Source: a virus
Reading direction: 5' to 3' (one strand)
Virus record (IMG/VR): IMGVR_UViG_3300030107_006280
Span: 1 to 37,836 of that record
Length of the DNA: 37,836 nucleotides
Shown: positions 307 through 23,355 of the stretch, piece after piece
Position numbering within the stretch: position 1 is the stretch's first letter
Layout: each line of letters begins with the position of its first letter
Notes under the pieces: generated by a model
Told to the model about the DNA's origin: nothing
The model's database searches: none
Seen by the model: only the letters and a program-made list of their open reading frames with translations
Made by a program: the position numbers and the translations under genes

Positions 307-323
307 GGGGGGGGGGGGGGGGG
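307..323 (+). repeat. Homopolymer of 17 G
   Basis: Seventeen consecutive G on the plus strand, preceded by AAAACA. This is the longest homopolymer noticed in the window. It lies in the non-coding region between the divergent gene blocks. Such runs can slip during replication, can form G-quadruplex structures, and are a common place for sequencing length errors. Confidence 0.9.
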
Positions 324-507
324 AGCCGCTGCGCGGGGCAGGGAGTTATTGGATCGTTCCATGGGCGGGCGGGTGCGCGGATGGGTGGGGGTGTGCGCGT
401 GCATGGAAGATGCCGCTGGGTGGTACGTAAGGTGCATTATCCGACGTAGATTGCAGGGAAGATGAGCCCCCCATGCGCCCCCGGGCATGCGTCCGGGCTG
501 CCCGCGC

Positions 508-616: not shown

Positions 617-672
617 CCCCCCCCTCTCCCTCTCTTTTGGAGTCTGCGACAAAAGAGAGGGAGAGGGGGGGG
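617..672 (+). promoter_or_regulatory. 23-bp perfect hairpin with GAGTCTGCGA loop (copy A)
   Basis: The left arm (617-639) is a pyrimidine tract of C, CT and T runs ending in one G. It pairs perfectly with the purine-rich right arm (650-672). The 10-nt loop GAGTCTGCGA occupies 640-649. The hairpin ends 65 nt before the ATG at 737. A second hairpin with the same loop and the same G-C closing pair, but an unrelated stem, lies at 3233-3280, 70 nt before the ATG at 3350. No T-run follows, so it does not look like an intrinsic terminator; a regulatory or processing element at the head of each plus operon fits better. Confidence 0.65.
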
Positions 673-736
673 GCCGTTTTGTTTTCGGCTTCCCCACCTC
701 CCACCACCAACTCGGCGCCAAGGAGGCGTCACGATC

Positions 737-1315
737 ATGTCCAAGTCCAAGCTCCACCTCGCCAACCTCAACACTCGTCGCCGTCTCGTTCGGGAGTTCC
801 TCGCAAGCATGGAGGAGGCCAAGGGTGCCCTCAAGACCGCATGGCGGCAGGAGCCGCCGCACCGCTGGGCCAACAGGCTCGCCACGAGCACGCAGAACCT
901 CTCCGAGGTTTGGGGCGGCTCGGAGGTCAACCTGGAGCCCTTCCGCAAGGCCCTGGAAGGCGGCAAGTGGAAGGCGGCTTCCAAGGCCCTTGCCAAGGCG
1001 GCGGAGTCCTGGTGCAAGTGGGCCGAGAAGCAGGGTGCATGGGGGGAGATCCCCGGCTGGATGGACAGCCAGCGCCCTCGGGTCATCCGTACATGCTCCA
1101 TGGACGGCTGGCTGACGAAGGCCGAGGAGAAGGCCAAGGAGGCCCCCAAGGCGGCTCCCAAGGCCAAGGCCCCGGCCAAGGCCCAGAAGGCCAGCAAGGC
1201 GGCTCCCAGTGCCCCTGACGGCATGGACAAGCTGCTGTCGGCCATGGAGGTGCTGGTGACCTCCTCGGTCCAGACCAACGAGAAGCTGGACAAGCTGGTG
1301 GACGCACTGGTCTGA
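737..1315 (+). CDS. Lysine/alanine-rich protein of unknown function
   Basis: This 192-residue protein starts at an ATG with AAGGAGG about 10 nt upstream. The first ~125 residues are mixed and basic, with several Trp (WGGSEV, WCKWAEKQ). They are followed by a KAPKAAPKAK-type tail of lysine, alanine and proline at about residues 130-158, similar in composition to histone H1-like or nucleoid-binding tails. The last ~35 residues form an amphipathic helical segment. It is the first gene of the plus operon, directly below the hairpin array, which suggests early expression. DNA or RNA binding is inferred from composition only. A long minus-strand frame (538-1377) overlaps it but is low-complexity and was discarded. 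Confidence 0.75.
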   Translation: MSKSKLHLANLNTRRRLVREFLASMEEAKGALKTAWRQEPPHRWANRLATSTQNLSEVWGGSEVNLEPFRKALEGGKWKAASKALAKAAESWCKWAEKQGAWGEIPGWMDSQRPRVIRTCSMDGWLTKAEEKAKEAPKAAPKAKAPAKAQKASKAAPSAPDGMDKLLSAMEVLVTSSVQTNEKLDKLVDALV

Positions 1316-1381
1316 GCTTGCAAGCGGGCTGGCCCTCCACGGGGGGTCAGCCCCATCACCCATGCACAAGGAGGCATGACG

Positions 1382-1498
1382 ATGGAATCAAGTTGCTATT
1401 TCTGTAGCTGCAAACTAACCGACGAAGAGGAACGGCTAGGCGACGGATCTTGCCTGGCGTGCTTCGAGCGATTGAACCCCGATGCCAAGGAGGCATGA
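1382..1498 (+). CDS. Small zinc-ribbon-like protein (38 aa)
   Basis: A short frame begins at ATG 1382 and stops at 1496-1498. It has two cysteine pairs, CYFC near the N-terminus and CLAC about 20 residues later, a C-x2-C / C-x2-C arrangement typical of small zinc ribbons. An in-frame ATG at 1376 would add Met-Thr, but AAGGAGG (1368-1374) sits 7 nt from 1382 and only 1 nt from 1376, so 1382 is chosen. The end of the gene carries the AAGGAGGC that serves the next gene. Function is unknown; small zinc-ribbon proteins in phages are often protein- or nucleic-acid-binding adaptors. Confidence 0.75.
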   Translation: MESSCYFCSCKLTDEEERLGDGSCLACFERLNPDAKEA

Positions 1499-1500
1499 CG

Positions 1501-1863
1501 ATGGCAAGAGTCCACACCCACCCCGAGCGGCTTGTCCGCATCCTGAGCAAGCTGTCGTTGCAGGATCTCAGCGACCTGTACAGCAACACCGCATACACGA
1601 TGGACGTAAGTAAGTTCCTCTCCGGCGGAGGCGACGTTGGCTACACGCCGGCCTGGCACGCCGCCAGCGACATGGCCCGTGTTCGCATGCGGGCCCTGCG
1701 TTCTGCTGCAAAGTGGAACATCGGCTGGCGGGGCAAGACCGTGATCCGCACAGGCGGTACGACGGGCTCGGGCGGCGAGGCACACAGCAGAGGCATGACC
1801 ATGCGGATGCGCCCCGACACCGGGCCTGACAGGTTCAGCACCCCCATGCACGAGGATGCATGA
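1501..1863 (+). CDS. Hypothetical protein (120 aa)
   Basis: The frame can be opened at 1450 or 1495, but the Shine-Dalgarno AAGGAGG (1487-1493) is correctly spaced (7 nt) only from ATG 1501. The start region is identical over 17 nt to that of the preceding gene. The N-terminal third (HPERLVRILSKLSLQDLSDL) looks helical. The middle is rich in Arg and small residues, and the tail is Arg/Gly/Met-rich and probably disordered. No domain is recognised. It sits in a chain of small genes whose stop codons lie inside the next gene's start region, which argues for translational coupling. The last ~35 codons have a biased composition, but the frame ends in the same junction motif as its neighbours. Confidence 0.65.
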   Translation: MARVHTHPERLVRILSKLSLQDLSDLYSNTAYTMDVSKFLSGGGDVGYTPAWHAASDMARVRMRALRSAAKWNIGWRGKTVIRTGGTTGSGGEAHSRGMTMRMRPDTGPDRFSTPMHEDA

Positions 1864-1865
1864 CG

Positions 1866-2204
1866 ATGACAGACAAGCGCAAGATCGAGGACCGTCTGGG
1901 CATCACCGAAGGACAGTTCGAGGACATGGCGGACAAGGTCGCCAGCCGCATGGACGAGGGGGGGGACCCGCCCCCCATGCCCAAGTGGGGAGGGCCGTGC
2001 GTGCCGAAGTACCAACCCCGACCCCGCCTTGACGCTGCCATGCAGGACAAGCTGGCGCCGGTGCTTGCGTGCCCGGGGGCATGCCCGGCGTGCGGCTCGG
2101 AGGACATCTATCTTTCCCTCAACGGCTACGACTCGTCGCTGGTCTGCCGCAACTGTGGCGGGGAGCATCACCGGCGCGTTTCCTGCAAGGACGAGGAGGC
2201 ATGA
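1866..2204 (+). CDS. Zinc-ribbon protein (112 aa)
   Basis: The start is taken at ATG 1866, 8 nt after GAGGAT; an upstream in-frame ATG at 1860 is too close to that site. The N-terminal ~60 residues are charged and include a GGDPPPMPKWGG-type linker. The C-terminal part has a zinc ribbon: CPACGSE, then about 15 residues, then CRNCGGEHHRR. This is a standard C-x2-C / C-x2-C fold, usually used to bind nucleic acid or a protein partner. The tail ends KDEEA and its last codons supply GAGGAGG for the next gene. Function beyond zinc binding is unknown. Confidence 0.75.
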   Translation: MTDKRKIEDRLGITEGQFEDMADKVASRMDEGGDPPPMPKWGGPCVPKYQPRPRLDAAMQDKLAPVLACPGACPACGSEDIYLSLNGYDSSLVCRNCGGEHHRRVSCKDEEA

Positions 2205-2206
2205 TG

Positions 2207-2473
2207 ATGTACCGAGGACGAGACTACGACGCTGCGCTTCGCGAGGCGCTGGACATTGCAGGCCGGACGGGTCGTGACATGGGCATTGAAAAGCTCACCG
2301 ACCTGGACGGCTTCACCGTGTATGCGGTGCGGCACCTGCCGAACCCGGAGAACCGCTTCGGGGTGGATGCACGGTGCGAGGTTGTGTACGGGGCTGTGTA
2401 CCCGGACCACCCCCAGCATGAGAACTGGGCGGATCACCGCCCGAGCCCTGATACCTGTGACCTGGACTACTAA
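2207..2473 (+). CDS. Hypothetical protein (88 aa)
   Basis: Three consecutive ATG codons lie at 2201, 2204 and 2207. GAGGAGG at 2193-2199 is 7 nt from 2207, which is therefore preferred. The protein begins YRGRDYDAALREALDIAGR and contains a predicted alpha/beta core (FTVYAVRHLP, CEVVYGAVYP) with an acidic, proline-containing tail ending DTCDLDY. No domain is recognised. The preceding gene's TGA lies within the ATG cluster, so translation is probably coupled. Confidence 0.65.
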   Translation: MYRGRDYDAALREALDIAGRTGRDMGIEKLTDLDGFTVYAVRHLPNPENRFGVDARCEVVYGAVYPDHPQHENWADHRPSPDTCDLDY

Positions 2474-2498
2474 CTACATGCCCAAGGAGGCAACATAA

Positions 2499-2747
2499 AT
2501 GACACTCATCAAACCTGACGTATACTTAGAGTGGGACGTGTCCTTCGAGGTCGACGCCGAGGAGATCGTGGACGACGCTCGCCATTCCATCGAGGATATC
2601 GCACGCAGAGAGGCCGAGGATGCCATCAACGAGAGCGGCGTGGAATATGGGCTTGAGAGACTTGAAGAGCGAGTCGAAGCCCTTGAGGCCAAGCTGGCAA
2701 AACTGTGCGCCAAGCTGGCCCCCGAGGTGAAGGATGCACATGCATAG
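2499..2747 (+). CDS. Small acidic coiled-coil protein (82 aa)
   Basis: The ATG is preceded by AAGGAGG with 8 nt spacing. The N-terminal half is acidic and beta-like (DVYLEWDVSFEVDAEEIVDD). The C-terminal half has a clear heptad pattern of Leu with Glu/Lys (LERLEERVEALEAKLAKL), so a coiled-coil dimer is likely. Function is unknown. The gene overlaps the next small membrane protein by 8 nt. Confidence 0.7.
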   Translation: MTLIKPDVYLEWDVSFEVDAEEIVDDARHSIEDIARREAEDAINESGVEYGLERLEERVEALEAKLAKLCAKLAPEVKDAHA

Positions 2748-2835
2748 CGACCGGACTCCGAACGCTGACGATGAGCCCGCATGGGTGACGTGGCTGTTCT
2801 TTGCCACGCTCATGGTCATCACGTTCCTGGTGTAA
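2740..2835 (+). CDS. Small single-pass membrane protein (31 aa)
   Basis: The frame runs from ATG 2740 to TAA 2833-2835. About 14 polar, acidic residues are followed by one hydrophobic segment (WVTWLFFATLMVITFLV) that ends at the C-terminus. The start overlaps the end of the upstream gene, with GGTGAAGG just upstream as a possible ribosome-binding site. An in-frame ATG at 2734 would add two residues. It is likely a tail-anchored inner-membrane peptide; its role is unknown. It is the last gene before a 514-nt non-coding region. Confidence 0.55.
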   Translation: MHSDRTPNADDEPAWVTWLFFATLMVITFLV

Positions 2836-2840
2836 GTAAC

Positions 2841-2876
2841 GCGGGGTGGCCGAGCGCAGTTGCTTGGTCACCCCGC
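2841..2876 (+). terminator. 15-bp hairpin directly after a stop codon; possible terminator or processing site
   Basis: The arms 2841-2855 and 2862-2876 pair over 15 positions with two G-T wobbles. The loop is GCAGTT. It begins 5 nt after the TAA of the small membrane protein gene. There is no T-run after it, so a classical intrinsic terminator is doubtful; an RNA-stabilising or processing hairpin is equally possible. Confidence 0.4.
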
Positions 2877-3133
2877 TCCCCATCCCAACACCCACGCGGT
2901 CTTCGCTCCTGCGTGGGTGTGGGTCAAACACCCCCCCCTCCCCCCTTGGCACGTGGGGTGTGCCTTGGAGGTCAGAGAGGAGGGCCACCCCCGACAGGCT
3001 TGTTTAGCCAGGCCCTGCCGGATGCGTCAGCGCATCCCCCTGCCTGGGTGCATGAGCTTGAGTTGGTAGAGCGGTCAGGCTGGTGGCAACACCGCTGCGT
3101 GCCAGGCTAGCACACCTGCGCCGGCATGCACAA

Positions 3134-3216
3134 CCCCTCTCCGAGGGGAGCCACCCCCCCCTCCCTCCCCTAAGCCCTCCTCCGGAGGGCCCGCGCGTAG
3201 TCCTCCGGAGGAGGAC
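3134..3216 (+). repeat. Second array of three triloop hairpins
   Basis: Three perfect inverted repeats with 3-nt loops: CCCCTC/GAGGGG (3134-3139 with 3143-3148, loop TCC), GCCCTCC/GGAGGGC (3174-3180 with 3184-3190, loop TCC) and GTCCTCC/GGAGGAC (3200-3206 with 3210-3216, loop GGA). As in the array at 508-595, three short triloop hairpins precede a long hairpin with a GAGTCTGCGA loop and then a plus-strand operon. The loops differ from those of the first array. Confidence 0.65.
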
Positions 3217-3232
3217 CGAGAAGTTCCACCCC

Positions 3233-3280
3233 CTCCCCTCTCCCGGGGGGGGAGTCTGCGACCCCCCCGGGTGAGGGGGG
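3233..3280 (+). promoter_or_regulatory. Long hairpin with GAGTCTGCGA loop (copy B)
   Basis: The inner stem CCCGGGGGGG/CCCCCCCGGG (3242-3251 with 3262-3271) is perfect. After one T-T mismatch the pairing continues for 8 more positions with one wobble (3233-3240 with 3273-3280). The loop 3252-3261 is GAGTCTGCGA, identical to copy A at 640-649, and the closing pair is again G-C. The stem sequence is unrelated to copy A except for general C/G richness. It lies 70 nt before the ATPase gene start at 3350. Confidence 0.65.
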
Positions 3281-3349
3281 AAGCTGTTTCCGGCGGCGTC
3301 GTCGTCGCCACAACCTGAACTGCCGGACACCCCGGCAAGGAATGCAAGC

Positions 3350-4852
3350 ATGACTGGTCAGTATTACACCTGCCTCGGTGACGACATCATCGGAGGCTGC
3401 GGCAAGATTCACGGCCCGAGCACCAAGAGCACGCCGCTTGCGAAGGCGGAGGATTGCTGCTCAAGGCGCAACGACCCAGCCCGTGGCATCGTCCGCAAGC
3501 CCACCGGCCCGCTAACCCGGGGCGAGGTGGACGACATGCGGGCTCAGCGCCCGCTGCCCCGGGACACGTGGACTGACGAGGAGGTTGCCCGCTTCCTCTC
3601 CACTCGCATCTACGCCAACGAGATCGGCTACGGCCCCGACATGAGGTGGAGCGAACTCGCCGCCGTGGATCTCACCCAGATGGCGAATGGCGGGGAGGCG
3701 CATTGCGATGGCCGGGCGTGGCGCAAGCGGGTGGCTAAGCGGCTGATTGCCCGTGGGCTGACCGACATGTGCGACCGCACGAGCCTGGTGAACTGCCTGC
3801 CGTTGCTGATCGATGAGATCGACGCTGCTGCAAAGCCCGAGCCCGTTGCTGCAAAGCCGGAGCCCGTTGCGGCAACGCCTGCAACGCCTGCAACGCCGGC
3901 ATCCAGTGCGCTTGCCGGCCACGACTGGGGCGACCTTGCCCCGGTCGTCGTGGCGCTGGGCATGGACAAGGTGGCGGAGTCCATCTTGCAGGCAGTCGAG
4001 CGAGGGCTTGCCGTCAACGAGCCGCTGCTCCAGGCCCTGTCCGAGAGGCTGGGCGTGACCCGCAAGGTGGAGCATGTCCTCCCTGACCGCAAGCGTGTGA
4101 AGGTGGATGGCGTGGAGCACCCAGAGTTCGGCAAGCTGGTCAAGCTGCTGGGCGGCGGCCGTGTGAACCGCATCTGGATCACCGGAGAGGCCGGCGTCGG
4201 CAAGACGTATGCGGTGGAGCAAATCTTCCGGGCGCTCGACATCCCCATGTTTGTTGTCACCCCGGTTGGTGATAAGTACGAACTGCTGGGCTTCAACGAT
4301 GCCACAGGCACGTACCAGGAGACGGAGCTTTATCGGTGGGCGACTCACGATGGGCCGTGCGGGTTGCTGATCGATGAGATCGACGGCTCGCACCCCAACG
4401 CCCTGCTGTCGATCAACGCCGCGCTTGCCAATGGGCTGGCCGTGTTCCCTCCTGGGCAGGTCAAGGTCTCGGACGACAAGATCTGCGTGGCTACCGCAAA
4501 CACGGTGGGCGAGGGTGCCGATAAGAAGTACAACGCTCGCCTTGCACAGGACTCTGCCCTCCGTGACCGCTGGCAGGCGTATGTGCACTGGTCCCTGCAT
4601 GGCCCGACGGAGGAGGCGATTGCTATTGCCAACCACTACGGCACCCGTGAGGTGGTGGAGGCATCGCGGGCTATCCGCAAGAACCTGTCATCCAACGGCA
4701 TCGAGCGTGATTGGGGGCCGCGCAGGACGTACGCCCTCTGCCGCAACGTGGCGTCCGGCTTCGACATCAAGGACGCTGCGCTTCTTGCGGGTCTCAACAC
4801 TCTCGACAAGCAGCAGGTCAAGCGCGCCATGGAAGGAGTGAACTGTGGTTGA
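3350..4852 (+). CDS. MoxR/CobS-like AAA+ ATPase
   Basis: A 500-residue protein. A Cys-containing N-terminal region (C8, C17, C36-C37) may bind metal. A Pro/Ala linker made of tandem repeats lies at about residues 158-184. The AAA+ module follows: Walker A GEAGVGKT at 279-286, Walker B LLIDEID at 339-345, a sensor-1 type Asn in ATANT at 384, and an Arg-rich stretch (ALRDRW) where the arginine finger and sensor 2 are expected. The general layout matches the MoxR/CobS/CbbQ group, which remodels or inserts metal into partner proteins and usually works with a VWA-domain partner. The next gene, overlapping by 8 nt, may be that partner. AAGGA lies 8 nt before the ATG. Its target in the phage cycle is unknown. 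Confidence 0.85.
   Translation: MTGQYYTCLGDDIIGGCGKIHGPSTKSTPLAKAEDCCSRRNDPARGIVRKPTGPLTRGEVDDMRAQRPLPRDTWTDEEVARFLSTRIYANEIGYGPDMRWSELAAVDLTQMANGGEAHCDGRAWRKRVAKRLIARGLTDMCDRTSLVNCLPLLIDEIDAAAKPEPVAAKPEPVAATPATPATPASSALAGHDWGDLAPVVVALGMDKVAESILQAVERGLAVNEPLLQALSERLGVTRKVEHVLPDRKRVKVDGVEHPEFGKLVKLLGGGRVNRIWITGEAGVGKTYAVEQIFRALDIPMFVVTPVGDKYELLGFNDATGTYQETELYRWATHDGPCGLLIDEIDGSHPNALLSINAALANGLAVFPPGQVKVSDDKICVATANTVGEGADKKYNARLAQDSALRDRWQAYVHWSLHGPTEEAIAIANHYGTREVVEASRAIRKNLSSNGIERDWGPRRTYALCRNVASGFDIKDAALLAGLNTLDKQQVKRAMEGVNCG
3827..3898 (+). repeat. Tandem repeats encoding a Pro/Ala linker
   Basis: Two near-identical 21-bp units (3827-3847 and 3848-3868, one mismatch) encode AAKPEPV. They are followed by three 9-bp units GCAACGCCT/G (3872-3898) encoding ATP. 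They form the flexible linker between the N-terminal region and the ATPase core of the AAA+ protein. Slippage here would change linker length in multiples of three codons or seven codons without breaking the frame. Confidence 0.85.
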
Positions 4853-8975: not shown

Positions 8976-9020
8976 GATGTCACTTCCTCCTAAGCTGCGA
9001 TACTTGGGTGGAAGTGCCTG

Positions 9021-9057
9021 CGAGGCCCTACCCTAACCGGGTGGGGCCTCGTTTTTT
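9021..9057 (+). terminator. Intrinsic terminator of the first plus-strand block
   Basis: CGAGGCCCTACCC (9021-9033) pairs with GGGTGGGGCCTCG (9039-9051) over 13 positions with one wobble, loop TAACC, followed by six T (9052-9057). It ends the plus operon 45 nt after the ribbon-helix-helix gene. The minus-strand nuclease gene ends inside the stem (9033). No A-run precedes the stem, so it acts mainly in the plus direction. Confidence 0.9.
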
Positions 9058-12610: not shown

Positions 12611-12633
12611 TAAGCGGACTGCCTCTGCTGGCG

Positions 12634-12672
12634 GGGCCCCTCTGCGTGTGTTGCGCAGGGGGGCCCTTTCTT
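12634..12672 (+). terminator. Intrinsic terminator after recT
   Basis: GGGCCCCTCTGCG (12634-12646) pairs with CGCAGGGGGGCCC (12654-12666) over 13 positions with one wobble, loop TGTGTTG, followed by TTTCTT. It closes the recE-recT operon where it meets the minus-strand late block, whose last gene ends at 12671. Confidence 0.85.
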
Positions 12673-13797: not shown

Positions 13798-14008
13798 CGT
13801 CGCCTCCGCCCTTCTTTGCCATGGCGCGGCTCATAACGTAGACGGACGCCAGGACGCTGATGCCTGCTGCGGCTGCAATCTGCACGCGATAGTCATCGCT
13901 TGTGGTAAGAGCGGTGGTGAGGGCGGTCAGTCCTGCCGTTCCGAGGATTCCCTCGGACGAGTTGAGCATGCTGCCGGGGGAAACAATGGGCTTGTCGGTT
14001 TCGGTCAT
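13787..14008 (-). CDS. Small membrane protein, holin candidate (73 aa)
   Basis: ATG 14008 overlaps the stop of the giant virion gene (ATGA) and has AGGAG 7 nt upstream. The sequence contains two moderately hydrophobic segments (GILGTAGLTALTTALTT and VQIAAAAGISVLASVYVM) and a basic tail (SRAMAKKGGGDDAT). Length, two membrane helices and a charged tail fit a small class II-type holin. The first gene of the lysis group. Confidence 0.5.
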   Translation of the reverse strand: MTETDKPIVSPGSMLNSSEGILGTAGLTALTTALTTSDDYRVQIAAAAGISVLASVYVMSRAMAKKGGGDDAT

Positions 14009-17000
14009 TGGATTACTCCTGCGGGGGGGTACGTGCGGTGGACAGCCATGCCCACCATCTTTCCCATCCAGTCGAAGGTGTCGATCTCGCCCTGCAAGAA
14101 GCGCATCGACGCCTCTAGCTGGATGGGGCTCACACTCCTGACTCGCTCGGCAATGAACGACGGCAGGTTTTGCGGGGTGATTGCTTCGCCGCCACCGGGC
14201 GCCCACGAAACAAACTTGCCTCTTAGCTCGGGGTCGGGCTCGTAGCCAAACATGGACACGCCGGTCAGGTCCGAGATGTTTGTGTACTGGCGACCGGCCC
14301 AGTCCGACCCGGAGAGGGCGTCGATGGCTGTGCGCATCATGGGGCTGGCCTTGCCCTTGGCTACGCTGACGGGGCCCTTGCCCCCGGTGAAGGTGGCGAT
14401 GCCCCACTTGAAGGGGTCGCGGAAGTGGCCCATCAGCGAGAAGTATTTGTCGCTGCCGGTTTGCACGCCCTTCTCTCCGAGGTGCTTGTTCATCAAGGCT
14501 GCAAGCGGACGCATGTTCATGTCTGTCCAGTACAGCTTGTGCACGCCGTCGTGCCAGCTTTCTCCCCCGGCTGCGGACGCCTCCTTGGTGTCTTCCCAGA
14601 GCTCGTCCCAGTCAAAGCCGGCCATCATAAAGTTCCACAGCATGGTGGTGGCAACGAAGCGCACGGCCACGTTGGCCCACATGTCTCGGTAGACTTGCTG
14701 CTCCGCCTTGCTCCCAGACTTGATGGCCTTGACAGCGGTGATGAGGTTGGATTCCGTCCAGTCCGGCGCAAGGAACACCATGCGCAGGGCCATCTGGGCG
14801 CGCACGCTGCGTGGCCCCCCCAGCAGCTTGCCCGTAGACCGGCGCAGGTTGAGGCCGCCAAAGTCAGCGTTGAGCTTCTCGGCTGCAAGCCTGGCGACGT
14901 ACTCCTGGGCGGAGTTGTCGGGGTTGTTCTCCGTCCACAGCGGGTTGCTGCTGTCCCACGGCAGCGCCAGTTCGGCGGCGTACTTGCGCTTGAGGTGGGC
15001 GTACTCAACCATTGCGCCCTGCACCTTCAGGTGTGCGCCCATGTTGTTGAACAGCCAATGCGACGCGCGCCGCTGCGTGGCAACGAAGTTGTCGTAGCCC
15101 TGCATGGCCTTTGGCGTAATGCCCATCTTCTTCAGGGCGCCGTCCAGCTTCTTCCTGAAGTCTGTCAGGTCGCTGATAAGAGCGGGCTCCATGTCTTGCA
15201 CGGACCCCACGGTCAGGCCTGCGCGCACAAGCTCGACAAGCTCGGGGGCCTGGCTCAGGATCGCCTGCCTGCCCGCCTCGTAGGCCGGCATGTTCCTGGC
15301 GGACGCCTCAACGCTCTCCCTGCTAATGAGGCCAACGGCATACCCCGCCGTCTTGATTGCCGCCGTTGCAATGGACGGCAGGTGCGGCAGGTTCTTCATC
15401 ATGGTCGGCCTGTCCATCGTCACGATGGAGCTTCGCATGAACGCCTGGTGGTGGAAGAAGCTGAACGTCAGGATGGTGTGCTTGGCCCACGAGTTCACCC
15501 CGATCAGGTGCTTCATCACCGGGTTGAGGTTGTCGTAGTCGAACGTCTCCGTGATGGCGTTGAGCGTTCTTGCAAGCTGCCTCGGGGCGACATGCCCAAT
15601 GAACTGCGGCGCCCGCAGCGGGATGTACCCATCCCCGCGCCCGACCTCGTCGTGCTTGGCAATGATGCCCTTGGACTTGAGCGTGTCGATGAGCCTGGAG
15701 TTGTACACGGCCTCGCCCACCTGCCTTGACGCAACCCGCTGGGCTTCGATTGCACCCGGCACCCGCAGCGTTTCGCCCAGGGCCTGGCCCTGCAAGATGC
15801 TGTCATAGACGCGCTGCTTTTGCCGACCGCCCGGCTTGGTGCGCAGCGGGCCTCCAGGGCGCGAGGGATCAACAAGGCCGCCGCCGGCCCCCTGCCCTTT
15901 GCGGAACCACAGGCGCGCAGCGTAGACCTCCTGCTTGCCTCCGATGACTCCGTTGCGGACAGCGACGGTGCCGATCTTGTCGTTCTCTAGGATTAGCTGC
16001 TCGGCAAGGGCGTGGACCTGGGGCTCTTGCCGCTCAAGGCTTTGCGATAGCTCCCACAGGCGGCGCTGCTCGGGGCTAAGGTCAGCCCGGTATGTGTTGT
16101 ATAGCTCCTGCGCACTGCCGTACACGAGCGCGCCCTGCTCGTCCGTCATGCGCAAGGCGTTCTTGGTGTCGATGTACAGCAGCATCGCCGCATCGCGGTC
16201 GCGCACCCACTTGTCGTGCTCGCGCGGGCCCAGCCCCGGCGGGGCAAGCTCGTCCAGCTTTGCGCTGTGCAGCTTGCTGGTGGTGTCGCGCTCAAACAGG
16301 AACTGGTCGAGGTTTGCCAGGTACTTGTTGAGCAGCACCACCGACTGCCGGGGGTCGGCGCCGGGCACCAGCAGCGAGGTTGCAGGCCCGCTGACCGGGG
16401 TGTCCGTTACGGCGTAGGGGTCGTCGCCAAAGCGCCTATCGCTGGGGTAAAGCGGGCGCAGCCCTTGGGCCGCCCGCGCAATGTTCATGTCCTGCACCGA
16501 CATTGTCAGCGCGAACTTGGGGGACATGGTGGACATGCCGCCCTTGCCCTCAATGTCGCTCGCGCTCGGCACGCCGGCTACGTTTTGTTGCCCCCTCGCT
16601 ACTTGTTCAGCCTCTGTCGCTTCGCCAATTACAGCGGGGACGGCGGCGGGCAGGTCGAGCCCGTGCATGAACTGCCCCCGGTTTAGCTCGTAATGAATGG
16701 AGGGCGATTTCCGCAATGCTCTTTCAATGGCATTTGCGGCTTCGTCGTGGCTGTCAACCGGCGAGCGATTGACGTATTGGACGCCTGCGCCACGGCCATA
16801 GTCATGGCGGTAGACCCGGGCAAGCGCCTCGTCCCAGACCCTGCGGACATGCCCCTCGATGGCCTCCTTGGTCAGCGGCAGCCTGCCGCCATATACGCTC
16901 TCTTCGGTTGGGATGAAGTCGCGCATCGCATCATCGGGCTGGCCTGGCTCAGCAACGGCATCGCCAGTTTTCACGTCCCATACGGAGTCGTGCCTTTCGG

Positions 17001-20000
17001 AGGCATCCTCGGTCGCGGCCAGGTGCACCAAGAAGATCCCGGTGCTTTCGGGGCCGCTGGTGTCGGTCTGTGGCACCACAAAGCTTACGTACTGGCGCTC
17101 GCCGTCAATCCCGTTTTCGTTCGTGGTCGCTGTGGACCACCAGATAGGCACGCTGTATCTGCGCTTGCCGTGCGACACTTCGACAAAGGTTTTCTGGTCA
17201 GCCGGGATGGGCGTCCCCTCGACGCGCCTCGGCGTTCCGATGCCTAGCTCTTTGCCGAGCTTGCGGGCAATTTGGGGTAGGATTATGTCGTACGTCCTGA
17301 CGTGCGAGTATACGGGCTTTGAGTCAGGCTTTCGGGCAGCCTCCCGGGCGAACGCGACTGCCTCCCTAACCGCCGCGTCCCTTTCTTTGCCATCGGGCGT
17401 TGTGTAGTCATTGAGCGCAAGCGCAATGCGCGACGCGCCATACGCGCCAACCTCCTTGGCAAGCTCCGGGTCGTGCTCGCGTAGATAGCGATAGCCCTGA
17501 AGCACTCCAGCGCCGTGGTAGTTGCGAGCAATGATCTCTTCGCCGGTAGGCCAGGACAGTTCTTTGTATCCAAGCTCCGCCGCGCGCATCATTGCCAGCT
17601 TGAAGAACGCGGTGCGCCAGCGCCCGCTTCCAAACGGGGAGCCCCACTCCGGCGGGATTTCCTTTCTTGCAATTCGCTGCTCAAGGTCCGACTGCATCTC
17701 TTCCATGCGCAGCCGGGTTGGGGTTTCGACGGCAAACCGGATCCAGCCGATCATGCCCGGCGTTGCGCGCCGCGCCTTGGGCAGTTCAAAATGATCGCGG
17801 AGATAGTCCGGGTGCTCTTCAAACCCGTCAAGGAGCACTGCCACCTCGATGTGCTTGGTAGCGCCGGTAGTCCTTTCGCCGCGCCAGTAATCCTCGTAGT
17901 CGTCGGGGGAGTACTGCACGTCCTCCCCGCTGAAGACCACCGTCTTTAGCACGAGCCTGCGCTTCTGCATCTTGCCGAGCACTTGCTCCCGCGTAATCGG
18001 CCTGCCGGGCTCCTGCTCCGCTTTCAGCTCCGCCTTGATCTCATCCCAGCCAATGGCTTCCAGTTCTGCCTGTAGCGCCACCTTTTTCACGGAGCGGTCG
18101 ATGTCGTCTACGGCGTTCTTGCCGCCCCACTTCTTGTTGGGCAACGCCTCGACCGCCCGCTCAGCCGCCGAAAACATGTTTGCGGTAATCGGAACCGTGA
18201 TTGCAAAGTTGGCTTCGTCCTGAGAGGTCGTGCCATCTTCTTGCCCCGGCTCGCGGATTACGTCCAGCGAGTGGATGATGTCCGGGTCTAGGACATGCGC
18301 AACCTTTGTGCGCGGGGCCCCAAGCCCCTCGCCCTCCTCTACGGTGTTGATAACAACGGTCGTTCCGTCGGGGACTTCGATGTCGTCAATCGACTCCAGC
18401 GGCTGCGGCGTTGTGACTTCAACGACGGTGCCTGGCGGGGGCAGCAGCACCGACGCAGACTCCCCGCGCTGCATGGCTTCTTCGGCCATGTCCTCAAGGT
18501 GCTGGTTTTGCTGCGCGGCAAGGCGGTCAAGCGAACTGGCCGTTTGCGCCTGCTGCGCCATGTACTCGCGGAGCAGTTCATCCAGGGCTTCGCGCTGCTC
18601 GGGATCGGTGTCCTCGGGCAGCGACTCCGCCGCTTTGCGGATCTCCTCAGCGGCGGCTTCGGCGGCGCTGTTTTGATTCTGGATGCGCGCCGTATCCGCA
18701 AGGAACTCGGCGTTGGGCTCGACCGTTCCGGGCTGCGCGGTCTTGCGCCCGTCCTGGTTTGTAACAAGCACAAGGGTGTCGCCCTCTTCTTGCTCGGCTT
18801 CCCACCAGGCAAACGTGCCGCCGGCGTTGTCATGCACAGCGGGGTCGGCAGACTTCACCAGCAGCGCTCCGCCCTGGTCGGGCTGCACCGTAGCCATGTA
18901 CCCAGCCTCGGTGATCTTGCCGACAGAGGAGCCGCCGTCGCCGTAGCTAACGTCGTCTACCACGGGTGTTCCAAGACCCAGGATCTCGGCCTCGGACACC
19001 GTGGCCTGCCCCGCACCTAGCAGGTCGGCCTCTCGCAGCCCTTGCTTGTAGAGGATGCTGTGCAGGATGCGCGTCCGGCGCGTAGCCCACGGCTTCCAGT
19101 CTTGCCCCTTGTTGTAGGACTGCAAAGCCCCAAGGGTGCCCGGGATGTCGCGGATGTCCTCTTCGGTTACGCCGTGCGTCGCCGCTACCGTGCCCTCATC
19201 CCCAGCCGTCATAGCGGCGAGCACTTCGCCGGCAGGGTCTTCCGTGTTTGCCCACACGCTGTCGGCGGGCGGCTCGTACATGCGCCTGAACTGGCGCTCG
19301 ACAATCCGCTCAAACCTTCGGCCCCGCGTCTGCCTGCTGCCCTGCAAGTCCATAAGGTCTTGCCGCAGGGCCTCGGTCTCCTGGCGCGGGTCGATAAACG
19401 GCAGCCCCGGCTGGGCTCGGTTGTGCACCATGGCCTCGCTCTGTAGCTCGGAGCGATCCATGTCCCTGATCCTGCTGGCCTGCGGGCGCGGCCCGGTTGC
19501 GCGGGGGCGCACAGCCCCTGCCTCTTCCAGGGCTTCGCGCTGCCGCCTTTCGCCGCCAACCTCTCCCTCGTCAAGTTGGCGTCTTTGCGCTGCGCGGCGC
19601 TCTGCTGCGTCGCGGCGGGCCTGCTCCTCGGGCGAGACAACGGGCTGCGGCTGGACCTTGGCCGGCATGCTTGCAAAGTCGAGGTCGCCCTGCTGCTCCG
19701 CCTCAATCGCCTTTAGGGCCGACATAAGCTCGGCGGTCTTGCCGTTGAGCTTCGGGACGCTTACGCCGTCTTGCTCGTGCTGGCGCAGCGCCTTGATGAT
19801 TGCCTGGCGCTGCTTGCCCTTCGGCATTTTTTCAATGCGCTCCGACTCCGACAGGAACGGGTTGTCGGCTGCAAGCCGCTCCTCCTGCTCCGGCGTCCGC
19901 TCCTTCTTGGGCTCCTCTTTTTTCTTTTGGCTTGCCGCCCTTCTGCGTCCGCGCTTTTTCTTTCTCCCGCCTCCGGCCTGGGCGGCCTGGCGCGTAGACG

Positions 20001-23000
20001 TTTTGGCTAGACCGGGAACCGTGCTTAGGTCGGCGTAGACAGGGCCGCCCTCTTTGTAGACGCCATAGACCGTGCCGTCGTCCAGCTTGCCGGTCGGCGT
20101 GAAGTCATCCTTCGGGGCTCTCTCCTTGGTTCCCGCAATGCCGGCGCCTCGGGCTTCGTCGTGCTGCGCAGCCAGGCTTCGCACCATGTCGGCGTCAAGC
20201 TCGTTTTGCGGCAGCGTCGGCTCTGCGGGCTCGGGGTATGTGTCCGGGTCTTGCTCGTGCAGAGCCTTGCGGACCCTGTAGTGCTGCGTGTCGCGCCACG
20301 CCCTCCGCTGAATCGGGGTGGGCTTGCGGATGCTCGGCTTGCCCGCCTCCTCCTCTTCCGGCGCCGCTGCCTTGACCCTTCGCGGCTCCGGGTCTTCAAG
20401 CGGCTTGGGCTCTGCCGCTTTTTTCCTGGCCTTCTTCCTGGCCTTCCTGCTGGCTTTCTTGCCGGCCTTCTTTTTTGCACCAGGCTCTGGCTGCTCTTGG
20501 GCTTCGGCCTCTTCCTGCTCCTGTGCCTGGGCCTCTTCCTGCTCTTGCGCCTCGGGCTCTGCTTGCTCCTGCGCCTCGGCCTCGGTGTCAACCTCGTCAA
20601 TCTCTTCGCTAAGCGAGCGGTCGGCGGCTGCGCGGGCTGCGCTGTCGGGGTTCTCGGCAGCGTCTTTGACGCCGGCCTGCTCCTCGGCCTCCCACGAAGC
20701 CGGGACCGGGGGCGCCGAGAACACGCCATACAGCGCGGTTGCAACCTGCGTTGCGGCGGCTACTTGGTCGCTGCTCCACAGGTCTGCGTCCCCGCCGATC
20801 TCCTCCTTGATCTTGGCCCGAATTGCGCGCAGCGCCATGGTGTCGATGTTGACCCACGGCAGCTTGCTCGCGGCCTTCGCAAACATGTCGGCCACTCGGT
20901 ACGCCACGCTGTGCTGCTGGGCGAGTAGCTCGTTGAACAGGTGCATGTTGTCGGCAACGTGCATCTGGTGCAGGAGCGGCCACAGGATCTGCGCCATTAC
21001 GGCTACAGACTCTTCGGCCTCGCTGATCTCTTTGCCTGGGTGTTGCTTCTGTATGGCTTCAACGTACGCCCTGCGCGCGGCCTCGTACGGGCCAGGCATG
21101 GCGGTCTTGATGAACTCTTCTAGCGCCTCGATCGTTTTGGGGAAGCGCTGGTATGCCTCGTGCACAAGCTCGTGGAACAAGTGCTCCCACCTGCGGCGGC
21201 GGGCAAGCTCCTTGATCTCGGGCTCGGTCATCTCCGCCATGTCGTCGGGCGTAATCCCGACGCCCTCTACGGCGCGACCCTCGCTGTCTTTGAGCCCGAT
21301 CTCGGCCATTGTCTGCACAGACATGTCCGACATCATCGGGCGGCTCATCACGATGACGCGGCCCTCCTTTTGGGGGCCATACCGCCCCCCCTCTACGCGC
21401 TCGTTGTACTTGTACTTAGCGTGCAGCGACGGGATCCGGTGGCCTTCGCCGTCCACCCACATCACAGCAACGCCCAGCCGACTAAGCATGTCGGCAACTT
21501 CTTGCTCCTCGGGCGTGTACTCCGATTGCGGGATGGCGCGAACGTCCTCGCCCATCTTGACTACGCTTGCCTTGGACAGCCGAGGCACGCCAGGCATGCC
21601 AATGGCCGAGGGCCCTTGCGGCGTCACCGGCTCAAACTCCACGTTTGCGTGGACAGAGCGCCCTGCAACGCTGCCGCTTACAGCGTCTTGGTCAAGGTAC
21701 GTGCGGCTAAGGCTGTCTTGCAGCGCCTCCACAGCGTCTACCTGCGCCGCGTTCCACCCCTCAAGCTCACTGCCGTCGTACTGCTCCAGGTTGGCCGTGA
21801 GCGACCGCACGGCCTGGTCGGCCTCCTCTCGGTCCTTGACCCCGTGGAGGGCCTCCTGCGCCTGCTGAACGGCTGCCTCGCCAGCAGCCTCGGGGTTCTC
21901 CTCGCCCCGTGCGGCGGCCTCCGCCGTTGCCTTCATGCGGATTGCAAGTGCAGTCGGCTTGGGTAGCTCGACGCGCGCCTGCATGCCCGTGGCTTCCCGA
22001 ATGGCCTTGGGGGCGTTGGCAATAAGCTGGCGCACCACGCCCATGTCGGCGCTGCGCCCTGACGACAAGACCTTTGCCCCAGCGCCGGCCCCGCCAGAGA
22101 TCAAGGCCATGCCGAGCATCGTGCCCAGCAGGTTTTCCGGCTCCCAGAACTCCTCCCACGACCCCTCAAGCTGTCCGATGTGCCCCACGTCGGGGAGCCC
22201 GCGCCCGGCCAGGTCTCGTGCCCCGGCGCCAAACGCCTCCTCAAGCATCTCCACTGCGAACGCAGAGAACGGCCCCTTGCCGTCGATGCCGATCTTTGCC
22301 AGTCGCCTGCTGACTGCGTCGGCGCCGTACTTCTGCACGCCCTTGCGCACGATGTGGCCCTTGAGCGCGGGCACAATGCCCATCGCGGCTTTGCCAAACA
22401 TCGCGCCCGACGCTTCGGACCACATCTCGATGTAGTCGTCAAGGATGGCCTTGGGCAGGTAGCTCAGCCACGTGCCGGCGTCATCGTCAATCTCTGCAAT
22501 CAGGTTGTCGGCTGCGGTCAGGGACAGGCCGACGCTGTCCGAGAACCAGTCGCGCATTGCGCCCGCGCGCGTGCGGCCAGCGCTGATGCCGTTGGCTCCA
22601 AGCGCGTCCATGGCGCCGCCAACCATGTGCCCTGCCAGGTTCTGCCCGAAGTATTGCCGGGCACCAATGCCCATGCTTTCGATGACGGGGGCCACTACGG
22701 CCTGCGCCATTTGCGGCGCAGAGGCTGCCCACTTCTTGGCAACCCCTTCAACCACGTCGCTTCCCGCCTTAGCTAGATACTTAGTTAGCGCGGTCTTGCC
22801 GGCGGCCTTCATGCCCGCCTTGGCGGCGGCCTTCCACAGCGCTCCGCCAATAGCAAACTCGGGCAGGAACGCCGACGCTTCACCGACAGCCCGGCCCGCA
22901 GTAAAGCCAATGCCTGCGTACTGGGAGCGGTAGAAGAACTGCTCGATGTCCTTGAGAAGCTCTAGCTCGTCCGCTGTTGCAATGCCTTCTTCGGCGCGCT

Positions 23001-23355
23001 GTGCGGCCTGGCTTGCGCGGTAAATGTATGCGCCGTCGGTGGCCGTGCTGGCGACAGGGAAGGCAATGCCTAGCCCTGCGCGCTCGCGCCCCAGCGCGCC
23101 CGTAAGCATGCCTTCTCCAAAGTCGGGCGTGGTTTCGCGCTCGATCAGGTCTTCGCGCCATTCCCTTTGGCCTGCTGTCTCGCCAAACTGCTCCTGCTTT
23201 AGGAATGCAGTGCGCGCCGCAAGCCCGGCCTCGTCCATCTCGGGCGTAAACCCGGCGCCGTCGATGATTGCGAGCGCCTCCGGCGACAGGGAGCCATCCT
23301 GCTTGGGCTCCTGCATTGCGGCGCCGGGGGGCAGCGGTTTCTTGTAGGTAGCCAT
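14005..23355 (-). CDS. Giant polyvalent virion protein (3116 aa), ejectosome position
   Basis: One uninterrupted frame, starting TAATG-coupled to the gene before it. It occupies the T7 gp16 position but is more than twice that length. Seen in order: helical, membrane-active-looking N-terminus with Gly/Ala stretches (to ~430); a zinc-metalloprotease motif HELVHE at 728-733, with acidic candidates for a third ligand near 779-782; an Ala/Glu/Gln-rich then Lys-rich low-complexity segment (about 915-1005); a MEEMQSD (1884-1890) ... LSWPTGEE (1933-1940) module found in phage 'large polyvalent' proteins; and a helical C-terminal region (about 2618-3116, with LAPDWTESNL) resembling the LPD38-type end of such proteins. 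It probably enters the host with the DNA. No RNA polymerase or lysozyme motif was recognised. Confidence 0.8.
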   Translation of the reverse strand: MATYKKPLPPGAAMQEPKQDGSLSPEALAIIDGAGFTPEMDEAGLAARTAFLKQEQFGETAGQREWREDLIERETTPDFGEGMLTGALGRERAGLGIAFPVASTATDGAYIYRASQAAQRAEEGIATADELELLKDIEQFFYRSQYAGIGFTAGRAVGEASAFLPEFAIGGALWKAAAKAGMKAAGKTALTKYLAKAGSDVVEGVAKKWAASAPQMAQAVVAPVIESMGIGARQYFGQNLAGHMVGGAMDALGANGISAGRTRAGAMRDWFSDSVGLSLTAADNLIAEIDDDAGTWLSYLPKAILDDYIEMWSEASGAMFGKAAMGIVPALKGHIVRKGVQKYGADAVSRRLAKIGIDGKGPFSAFAVEMLEEAFGAGARDLAGRGLPDVGHIGQLEGSWEEFWEPENLLGTMLGMALISGGAGAGAKVLSSGRSADMGVVRQLIANAPKAIREATGMQARVELPKPTALAIRMKATAEAAARGEENPEAAGEAAVQQAQEALHGVKDREEADQAVRSLTANLEQYDGSELEGWNAAQVDAVEALQDSLSRTYLDQDAVSGSVAGRSVHANVEFEPVTPQGPSAIGMPGVPRLSKASVVKMGEDVRAIPQSEYTPEEQEVADMLSRLGVAVMWVDGEGHRIPSLHAKYKYNERVEGGRYGPQKEGRVIVMSRPMMSDMSVQTMAEIGLKDSEGRAVEGVGITPDDMAEMTEPEIKELARRRRWEHLFHELVHEAYQRFPKTIEALEEFIKTAMPGPYEAARRAYVEAIQKQHPGKEISEAEESVAVMAQILWPLLHQMHVADNMHLFNELLAQQHSVAYRVADMFAKAASKLPWVNIDTMALRAIRAKIKEEIGGDADLWSSDQVAAATQVATALYGVFSAPPVPASWEAEEQAGVKDAAENPDSAARAAADRSLSEEIDEVDTEAEAQEQAEPEAQEQEEAQAQEQEEAEAQEQPEPGAKKKAGKKASRKARKKARKKAAEPKPLEDPEPRRVKAAAPEEEEAGKPSIRKPTPIQRRAWRDTQHYRVRKALHEQDPDTYPEPAEPTLPQNELDADMVRSLAAQHDEARGAGIAGTKERAPKDDFTPTGKLDDGTVYGVYKEGGPVYADLSTVPGLAKTSTRQAAQAGGGRKKKRGRRRAASQKKKEEPKKERTPEQEERLAADNPFLSESERIEKMPKGKQRQAIIKALRQHEQDGVSVPKLNGKTAELMSALKAIEAEQQGDLDFASMPAKVQPQPVVSPEEQARRDAAERRAAQRRQLDEGEVGGERRQREALEEAGAVRPRATGPRPQASRIRDMDRSELQSEAMVHNRAQPGLPFIDPRQETEALRQDLMDLQGSRQTRGRRFERIVERQFRRMYEPPADSVWANTEDPAGEVLAAMTAGDEGTVAATHGVTEEDIRDIPGTLGALQSYNKGQDWKPWATRRTRILHSILYKQGLREADLLGAGQATVSEAEILGLGTPVVDDVSYGDGGSSVGKITEAGYMATVQPDQGGALLVKSADPAVHDNAGGTFAWWEAEQEEGDTLVLVTNQDGRKTAQPGTVEPNAEFLADTARIQNQNSAAEAAAEEIRKAAESLPEDTDPEQREALDELLREYMAQQAQTASSLDRLAAQQNQHLEDMAEEAMQRGESASVLLPPPGTVVEVTTPQPLESIDDIEVPDGTTVVINTVEEGEGLGAPRTKVAHVLDPDIIHSLDVIREPGQEDGTTSQDEANFAITVPITANMFSAAERAVEALPNKKWGGKNAVDDIDRSVKKVALQAELEAIGWDEIKAELKAEQEPGRPITREQVLGKMQKRRLVLKTVVFSGEDVQYSPDDYEDYWRGERTTGATKHIEVAVLLDGFEEHPDYLRDHFELPKARRATPGMIGWIRFAVETPTRLRMEEMQSDLEQRIARKEIPPEWGSPFGSGRWRTAFFKLAMMRAAELGYKELSWPTGEEIIARNYHGAGVLQGYRYLREHDPELAKEVGAYGASRIALALNDYTTPDGKERDAAVREAVAFAREAARKPDSKPVYSHVRTYDIILPQIARKLGKELGIGTPRRVEGTPIPADQKTFVEVSHGKRRYSVPIWWSTATTNENGIDGERQYVSFVVPQTDTSGPESTGIFLVHLAATEDASERHDSVWDVKTGDAVAEPGQPDDAMRDFIPTEESVYGGRLPLTKEAIEGHVRRVWDEALARVYRHDYGRGAGVQYVNRSPVDSHDEAANAIERALRKSPSIHYELNRGQFMHGLDLPAAVPAVIGEATEAEQVARGQQNVAGVPSASDIEGKGGMSTMSPKFALTMSVQDMNIARAAQGLRPLYPSDRRFGDDPYAVTDTPVSGPATSLLVPGADPRQSVVLLNKYLANLDQFLFERDTTSKLHSAKLDELAPPGLGPREHDKWVRDRDAAMLLYIDTKNALRMTDEQGALVYGSAQELYNTYRADLSPEQRRLWELSQSLERQEPQVHALAEQLILENDKIGTVAVRNGVIGGKQEVYAARLWFRKGQGAGGGLVDPSRPGGPLRTKPGGRQKQRVYDSILQGQALGETLRVPGAIEAQRVASRQVGEAVYNSRLIDTLKSKGIIAKHDEVGRGDGYIPLRAPQFIGHVAPRQLARTLNAITETFDYDNLNPVMKHLIGVNSWAKHTILTFSFFHHQAFMRSSIVTMDRPTMMKNLPHLPSIATAAIKTAGYAVGLISRESVEASARNMPAYEAGRQAILSQAPELVELVRAGLTVGSVQDMEPALISDLTDFRKKLDGALKKMGITPKAMQGYDNFVATQRRASHWLFNNMGAHLKVQGAMVEYAHLKRKYAAELALPWDSSNPLWTENNPDNSAQEYVARLAAEKLNADFGGLNLRRSTGKLLGGPRSVRAQMALRMVFLAPDWTESNLITAVKAIKSGSKAEQQVYRDMWANVAVRFVATTMLWNFMMAGFDWDELWEDTKEASAAGGESWHDGVHKLYWTDMNMRPLAALMNKHLGEKGVQTGSDKYFSLMGHFRDPFKWGIATFTGGKGPVSVAKGKASPMMRTAIDALSGSDWAGRQYTNISDLTGVSMFGYEPDPELRGKFVSWAPGGGEAITPQNLPSFIAERVRSVSPIQLEASMRFLQGEIDTFDWMGKMVGMAVHRTYPPAGVIQ

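Follow-up and report, generated by a model that had tools for sequence, protein, structure and literature searches.

Genome layout and the two plus-strand operons

The analysed DNA is the IMG/VR virus record IMGVR_UViG_3300030107_006280 of an uncultured phage, and its whole length of 37,836 bases is referred to as the window. Plus-strand genes start at 737, and the large terminase and structural genes lie on the minus strand, extending to 37,798. The first gene of operon 1 (737-1315, +) encodes a 192-aa basic protein (pI 9.8) whose N-terminal stretch is basic, and the first gene of operon 2 (3350-4852, +) encodes a 500-aa AAA+ ATPase (PF00004; PHROG 249, CobS-like). The labels "early" and "operon" were assigned from gene order and content; the two gene sets are probably used early. 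The 737-1315 protein had no family match in Pfam or PHROG, no relative with a solved structure was found, and its predicted model (pLDDT 56) was of too low quality to look for related folds. None of the scanned proteins was recognised as an RNA polymerase, suggesting that the phage probably uses the host enzyme. The 3116-aa protein encoded at 14005-23355 (-) had no match in Pfam or PHROG and no recognisable polymerase motif set; it is 79% identical in contig L059, which is the rest of the contig of the close relative L038. Two strong terminator-like sites were seen at 9020-9052 and 12633-12667 (+), the second directly 3' of a RecT-like gene. Judged against L038 and the sister phage L007, the record appears to lack roughly 2.6-2.9 kb between its ends (37836 to 1). 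A search with the first 20 kb of the record found no near-identical phage record.

Two hairpins with an identical loop precede the operons

An inverted-repeat search recovered the twin hairpins described in the first-pass annotation, with the same 10-nt loop and the same closing G-C pair at the same positions, and these exceed all other short-loop inverted repeats of the window in length. In leader 1, hairpin C (614-675, +) has a perfect 23-bp stem at 617-672 that extends to 614-675 with one mismatch, and carries the loop GAGTCTGCGA at 640-649. In leader 2, hairpin C (3233-3280, +) carries the same loop at 3252-3261 on a stem with one T.T mismatch and one U.G pair. The 12-nt core GGAGTCTGCGAC, comprising the loop and the closing pair, is identical in all 12 letters, and the exact 10-mer occurs only at these two sites in the whole record. 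The hairpins lie about 65 and 70 nt before the ATGs at 737 and 3350, as first described.

The two stems had been called unrelated. This holds for the seven pairs adjoining the closing pair, which are almost wholly different (2 of 14 letters identical) and yet all paired, but not for the stems overall, in which 24 of 46 positions are identical and a C/G-rich lower stem is common to both copies (CCCCTCTCCC / GGG[A/T]GAGGGG). That pairing is kept while sequence changes was borne out: in an ungapped alignment about the loop, eight of the 23 pairs are altered on both sides and remain standard pairs, compared to 4.0 in shuffles (0/500 reached eight), a count that compares two paralogous sequences of one genome and is distinct from covariation across genomes. 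It dropped to 2-5 when the alignment register was slid. Both hairpins had also been said to lack a T-run, which applies only to copy 2, where GTTTCC alone follows the hairpin. In copy 1, the extended stem ends at 675 and is followed by a G and then by the U-rich tract TTTTGTTTT (677-685), which together with a TGTTTTCGGC-like stretch occupies 677-689 (+) in the alignment.

The twin-hairpin arrangement is real and far beyond chance. Hairpins of at least 15 pairs appeared in 0 of 40 Markov simulations of the window, and when the two intergenic regions were simulated 2000 times, no loop of at least 7 nt was shared between hairpins. Of some 100 loci compared, the window alone had a loop shared by two hairpins that differ in their stems.

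The hairpins are part of a larger repeated leader module

In both leaders, hairpin C belongs to a module with the same order of parts: a hairpin-forming segment (H1), about 20 nt, hairpin C and a TGTTTYCGGC-like stretch, to which the predicted fold adds small hairpins near the ribosome-binding site. In H1, self-complementary stretches flank GCGCGTA on either side. In leader 1 (557-597, +) it reads GTCCCCTACGGGGAC - CGCGCGTA - CCCCCTACGGGGG and can fold around GCGCGTA either into two local hairpins or into a single longer one, and in leader 2 (3176-3214, +) it forms a 15-pair hairpin (CCTCCTCCGGAGGGC / GTCCTCCGGAGGAGG, with one G.U pair and the loop CCGCGCGTA). Since the pairing registers of the two copies differ, no covariation is claimed for H1. 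Downstream of hairpin C in leader 2, sequence and alignment place a TGTTTCCGGC-like stretch at approximately 3286-3295 (+). RNA folds of the leaders were well below those of shuffled sequences, with z values of -4.4 (leader 1) and -4.6 (leader 2). The non-Watson-Crick pairs of the leaders, the T.T mismatch aside, are U.G or G.U on the plus strand. No promoter was recognised in the leaders, a perfect complement of the loop that might serve as a kissing partner was absent from the rest of the plus strand, and in Rfam no bacterial family matched, the duplex giving only microRNA models below threshold.

Other non-coding features lie near the module. TATGGGACCCGCT and TTGGATCGTTCCAT occur at 280-295 and 349-362 (+); the former is also found, sometimes repeated, upstream of the divergent gene in L007-L010, L017, L018 and L039, and the latter is common to the window and L007/L008. 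A conserved non-coding RNA of ~140 nt, probably structured, precedes the AAA+ gene in the window (2968-3115, +) and in L007 (1535-1672, -), with a mean column identity of 84% (MAFFT), a GGTGGCAACACC (GNRA) hairpin and a change that matches on both sides, from CCAGGC/GCCTGG to CCACGC/GCGTGG. It had no match in Rfam, and pattern scans of IMG/VR gave no copy beyond L007.

A sister phage carries its own repeat at the same two places

The large terminase (TerL) of L007 is 81% identical to that of the window. L007 has homologues of both first genes, each behind a leader; its AAA+ homologue is 32% identical, and the leader of its homologue of the 737-1315 gene is equivalent to leader 1. Both genes are preceded by a local hairpin followed by GCGCGT, which is seen once more upstream of the first, while in other loci such a hairpin preceded 44 of 1232 GCGCGT sites. 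L007 also has three copies of GCGTSAGGCGCCYGAATCAGAAGA (4824, 4589 and 1381; -) at the leaders of both first-gene homologues, and this repeat is absent from the window. The shared hairpin-GCGCGT part and the L007-only GCGTSAGGCGCCYGAATCAGAAGA indicate, by sequence comparison, that in both phages these two leaders hold a repeated element, partly common and partly phage-specific, and by its placement GCGTSAGGCGCCYGAATCAGAAGA appears as the L007 counterpart of the loop module. L007's own leader hairpins share no loop among themselves, and GCGTSAGGCGCCYGAATCAGAAGA is not clearly displayed in a hairpin loop. The first leader of L008 is almost the same as that of L007, so that the two are not independent.

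The loop itself was found in no second genome. TerL relatives lacked the exact loop. With two mismatches at most allowed in the core, their whole contigs gave scattered matches, in numbers similar to those of a reversed-pattern control. When the core was flanked by C and G runs, IMG/VR gave eight matches, none with a stem of more than about five pairs. The core plus GTTTNCGGC had no match in IMG/VR; GTDB genomes gave 16 matches, roughly the number estimated for chance, whose inner stems had 1-3 pairs. With a covariance model of the two copies run on 63 sources, only the window scored strongly, and the matches in L007 and L062 were without the loop. GTDB genomes held no TerL relatives, a RecT-based search gave distant loci only, and a literature search for the loop sequence returned only unrelated papers among the matches listed. 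Because exact patterns or seeds from close relatives underlie these searches, a diverged version of the loop in other genomes would have escaped them. The contigs of the closest relatives, among them L003 and L025 (TerL 92% identical), L038, L004 and L005, stop short of the leaders; that of L038 breaks off ~52 nt short of the divergent gene, within a C-run at the place corresponding to a 17-G run of the window (307-323). Four more distant relatives (L009, L013, L017 and L039) have other leaders, without the GAGTCTGCGA loop. Since only one genome has the loop, the case for selection on it rests on its two copies.

The leaders as candidate antitermination elements

Our leading reading, held tentatively, is that the module is a plus-strand leader-RNA recognition element that coordinates the two early operons, most likely by antitermination. 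Each operon (from 737 and from 3350) would open with a transcribed leader RNA in which H1 (hairpins around GCGCGUA) is followed after ~20 nt by hairpin C with the loop GAGUCUGCGA and by the UGUUUYCGGC-like stretch. The stems would present the loop, and the identical loop resembles a recognition tag through which a single factor, either phage-specific or a host factor exploited by the phage, would control both gene sets. The factor would most likely act on the host RNA polymerase by processive antitermination, in the way known from lambdoid nut/boxB and HK022 put sites, which are likewise found once per early operon. The hairpins, their common loop, the pairing kept through changed stems and the repeated module with its position are observed; transcription of the leaders, its early timing, action as RNA, the factor and antitermination itself are what we infer. 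Antitermination is favoured because one phage-specific repeat per operon leader and a phage with no recognised RNA polymerase correspond to the nut/put arrangement; the identical 12-nt core beside half-diverged stems, the eight two-sided changes, the low folding scores and the constant module order support it as well. Counting against it are the restriction of the loop to one genome, leaders in which no promoter was recognised, a loop geometry unlike boxB on a stem far longer than in nut sites, and the L007 repeat, which is not clearly placed in a hairpin loop. No antiterminator gene was recognised. The first-pass annotation had proposed a conserved structured regulator before two operons, which fits the constant loop, the kept pairing, the folds and the larger module, with "conserved" applying to the two copies of one genome. 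It had left the choice between RNA, DNA cruciform and processing site unmade; the wobble pairs, which fit the plus strand, favour the RNA level, as limited evidence on the strand.

Coordination could also occur after transcription, leaving the polymerase untouched, if the leader hairpins stabilised the 5' end, served as RNase III processing sites or were translational operators for a single phage or host protein. We consider this rather unlikely but worth serious attention. A long perfect duplex is a good RNase III substrate, and here one lies 65-70 nt before the first ATG, with small hairpins also predicted next to the ribosome-binding sites. However, a stem would be enough for processing or stabilising and would not need a constant 10-nt loop, and the hairpins lie too far upstream of the start codons to mask the ribosome-binding site directly. 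The U-rich tract after copy 1 could instead make hairpin C a conditional intrinsic terminator, switched by H1 or by a bound factor. Such an attenuator seems unlikely: a GC-rich stem followed directly by a U-tract was found in copy 1 only, and the stem is much longer than those of typical terminators. The terminator scan reported neither hairpin, as its permitted loop size of 3-8 nt excludes both.

The hairpins fold well as DNA too, on either strand, which would suit a cruciform or single-stranded hairpin bound by a protein in replication, packaging or recombination, or an N4-like promoter. We regard action on DNA as quite improbable, because the wobble pairs fit plus-strand RNA only and both copies have the same orientation at gene starts, and because the 3116-aa protein shows neither a family match nor a polymerase motif set, although a very diverged polymerase could be missed. 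Least probable in our judgement, and only a slim prospect, is that the arrangement has no function and stems from a recent leader duplication whose arms were perfected by template switching (quasi-palindrome correction) while the loop stayed unchanged by chance. Copying from arm to arm can yield matching changes without selection, the arms are rich in C/G runs, and long homopolymers such as the 17-G run occur in the region. Against this, the core is identical in 12 of 12 letters compared to 24 of 46 in the stems, each copy precedes the first gene of an operon, and L007 has a repeat of its own at both of these sites.

Returning to leader-RNA antitermination, a more specific version, which we put forward as doubtful, is that the module represents a new class of leader RNA, with a long, freely changing stem and a fixed 10-nt loop beside a GCGCGTA hairpin, by which each phage of this uncultured group tags its early transcripts for antitermination, and that the tag is possibly read by the basic first-gene product. 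On sequence grounds, the 737-1315 protein is only a lead, a candidate partner for the loop. If leader-RNA antitermination holds, this uncultured GC-rich phage group would have its own version of nut/put-type control, in which the loops occupy fixed places but vary from phage to phage; the two copies would offer a simple test of loop recognition, and the module would aid in finding early operons in phages without a known regulator.

Comparison with known systems

The leader element is not assignable to a known family, because its geometry differs from boxB and put could be compared by architecture, not sequence. Promoters of the N4 virion RNA polymerase are likewise hairpins upstream of early operons, but theirs have a short stem and a 3-nt loop and act as DNA for a virion polymerase; this type is disfavoured here, as no polymerase family was found among the scanned proteins and no motif set in the 3116-aa protein. 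ANTAR dual-hairpin targets have two loops of six bases, each beginning with A and having G as the fourth base, whereas the predicted loops here are of 9-12 nt and 10 nt. BoxB has a stem of about 5 bp and a small, purine-rich, GNRA-like loop of five bases, in contrast to the 10-nt loop on a stem of 16-23 pairs found here. No boxA-like sequence common to both leaders was seen by eye, though the boxA of the host may have another form.

Phage mEp021 has three nut sites with a conserved boxB loop, one of them upstream of an N-like gene (PMC11893012). Similar to the nut sites of lambdoid phages and mEp021, the module occurs once per early operon, the loop is kept within the phage while other positions vary, and specificity differs between phages; in contrast to them, no N gene, whose product would carry an arginine-rich motif, was identified, although the 737-1315 protein is basic at its N terminus, without a family match. 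In HK022, each put element has two stem-loops, and two copies per phage lie at the start of the early operons (PMC9378689). Each leader of the window likewise has two stem-loops (H1 and C), a likeness of architecture rather than sequence in which early timing is presumed, but put is ~70 nt with short bulged stems and binds the beta' zinc-binding domain, and the phage module is ~130 nt with long stems. The antiterminator LoaP recognises a hairpin that two operons have, almost unchanged, in their leaders (PMC12691694). Its hairpin is of the UNCG type and belongs to Bacillus biosynthetic operons, and no LoaP/NusG-like gene was recognised in the window, but the precedent demonstrates recruitment of an antiterminator by one hairpin that is present in two leaders.
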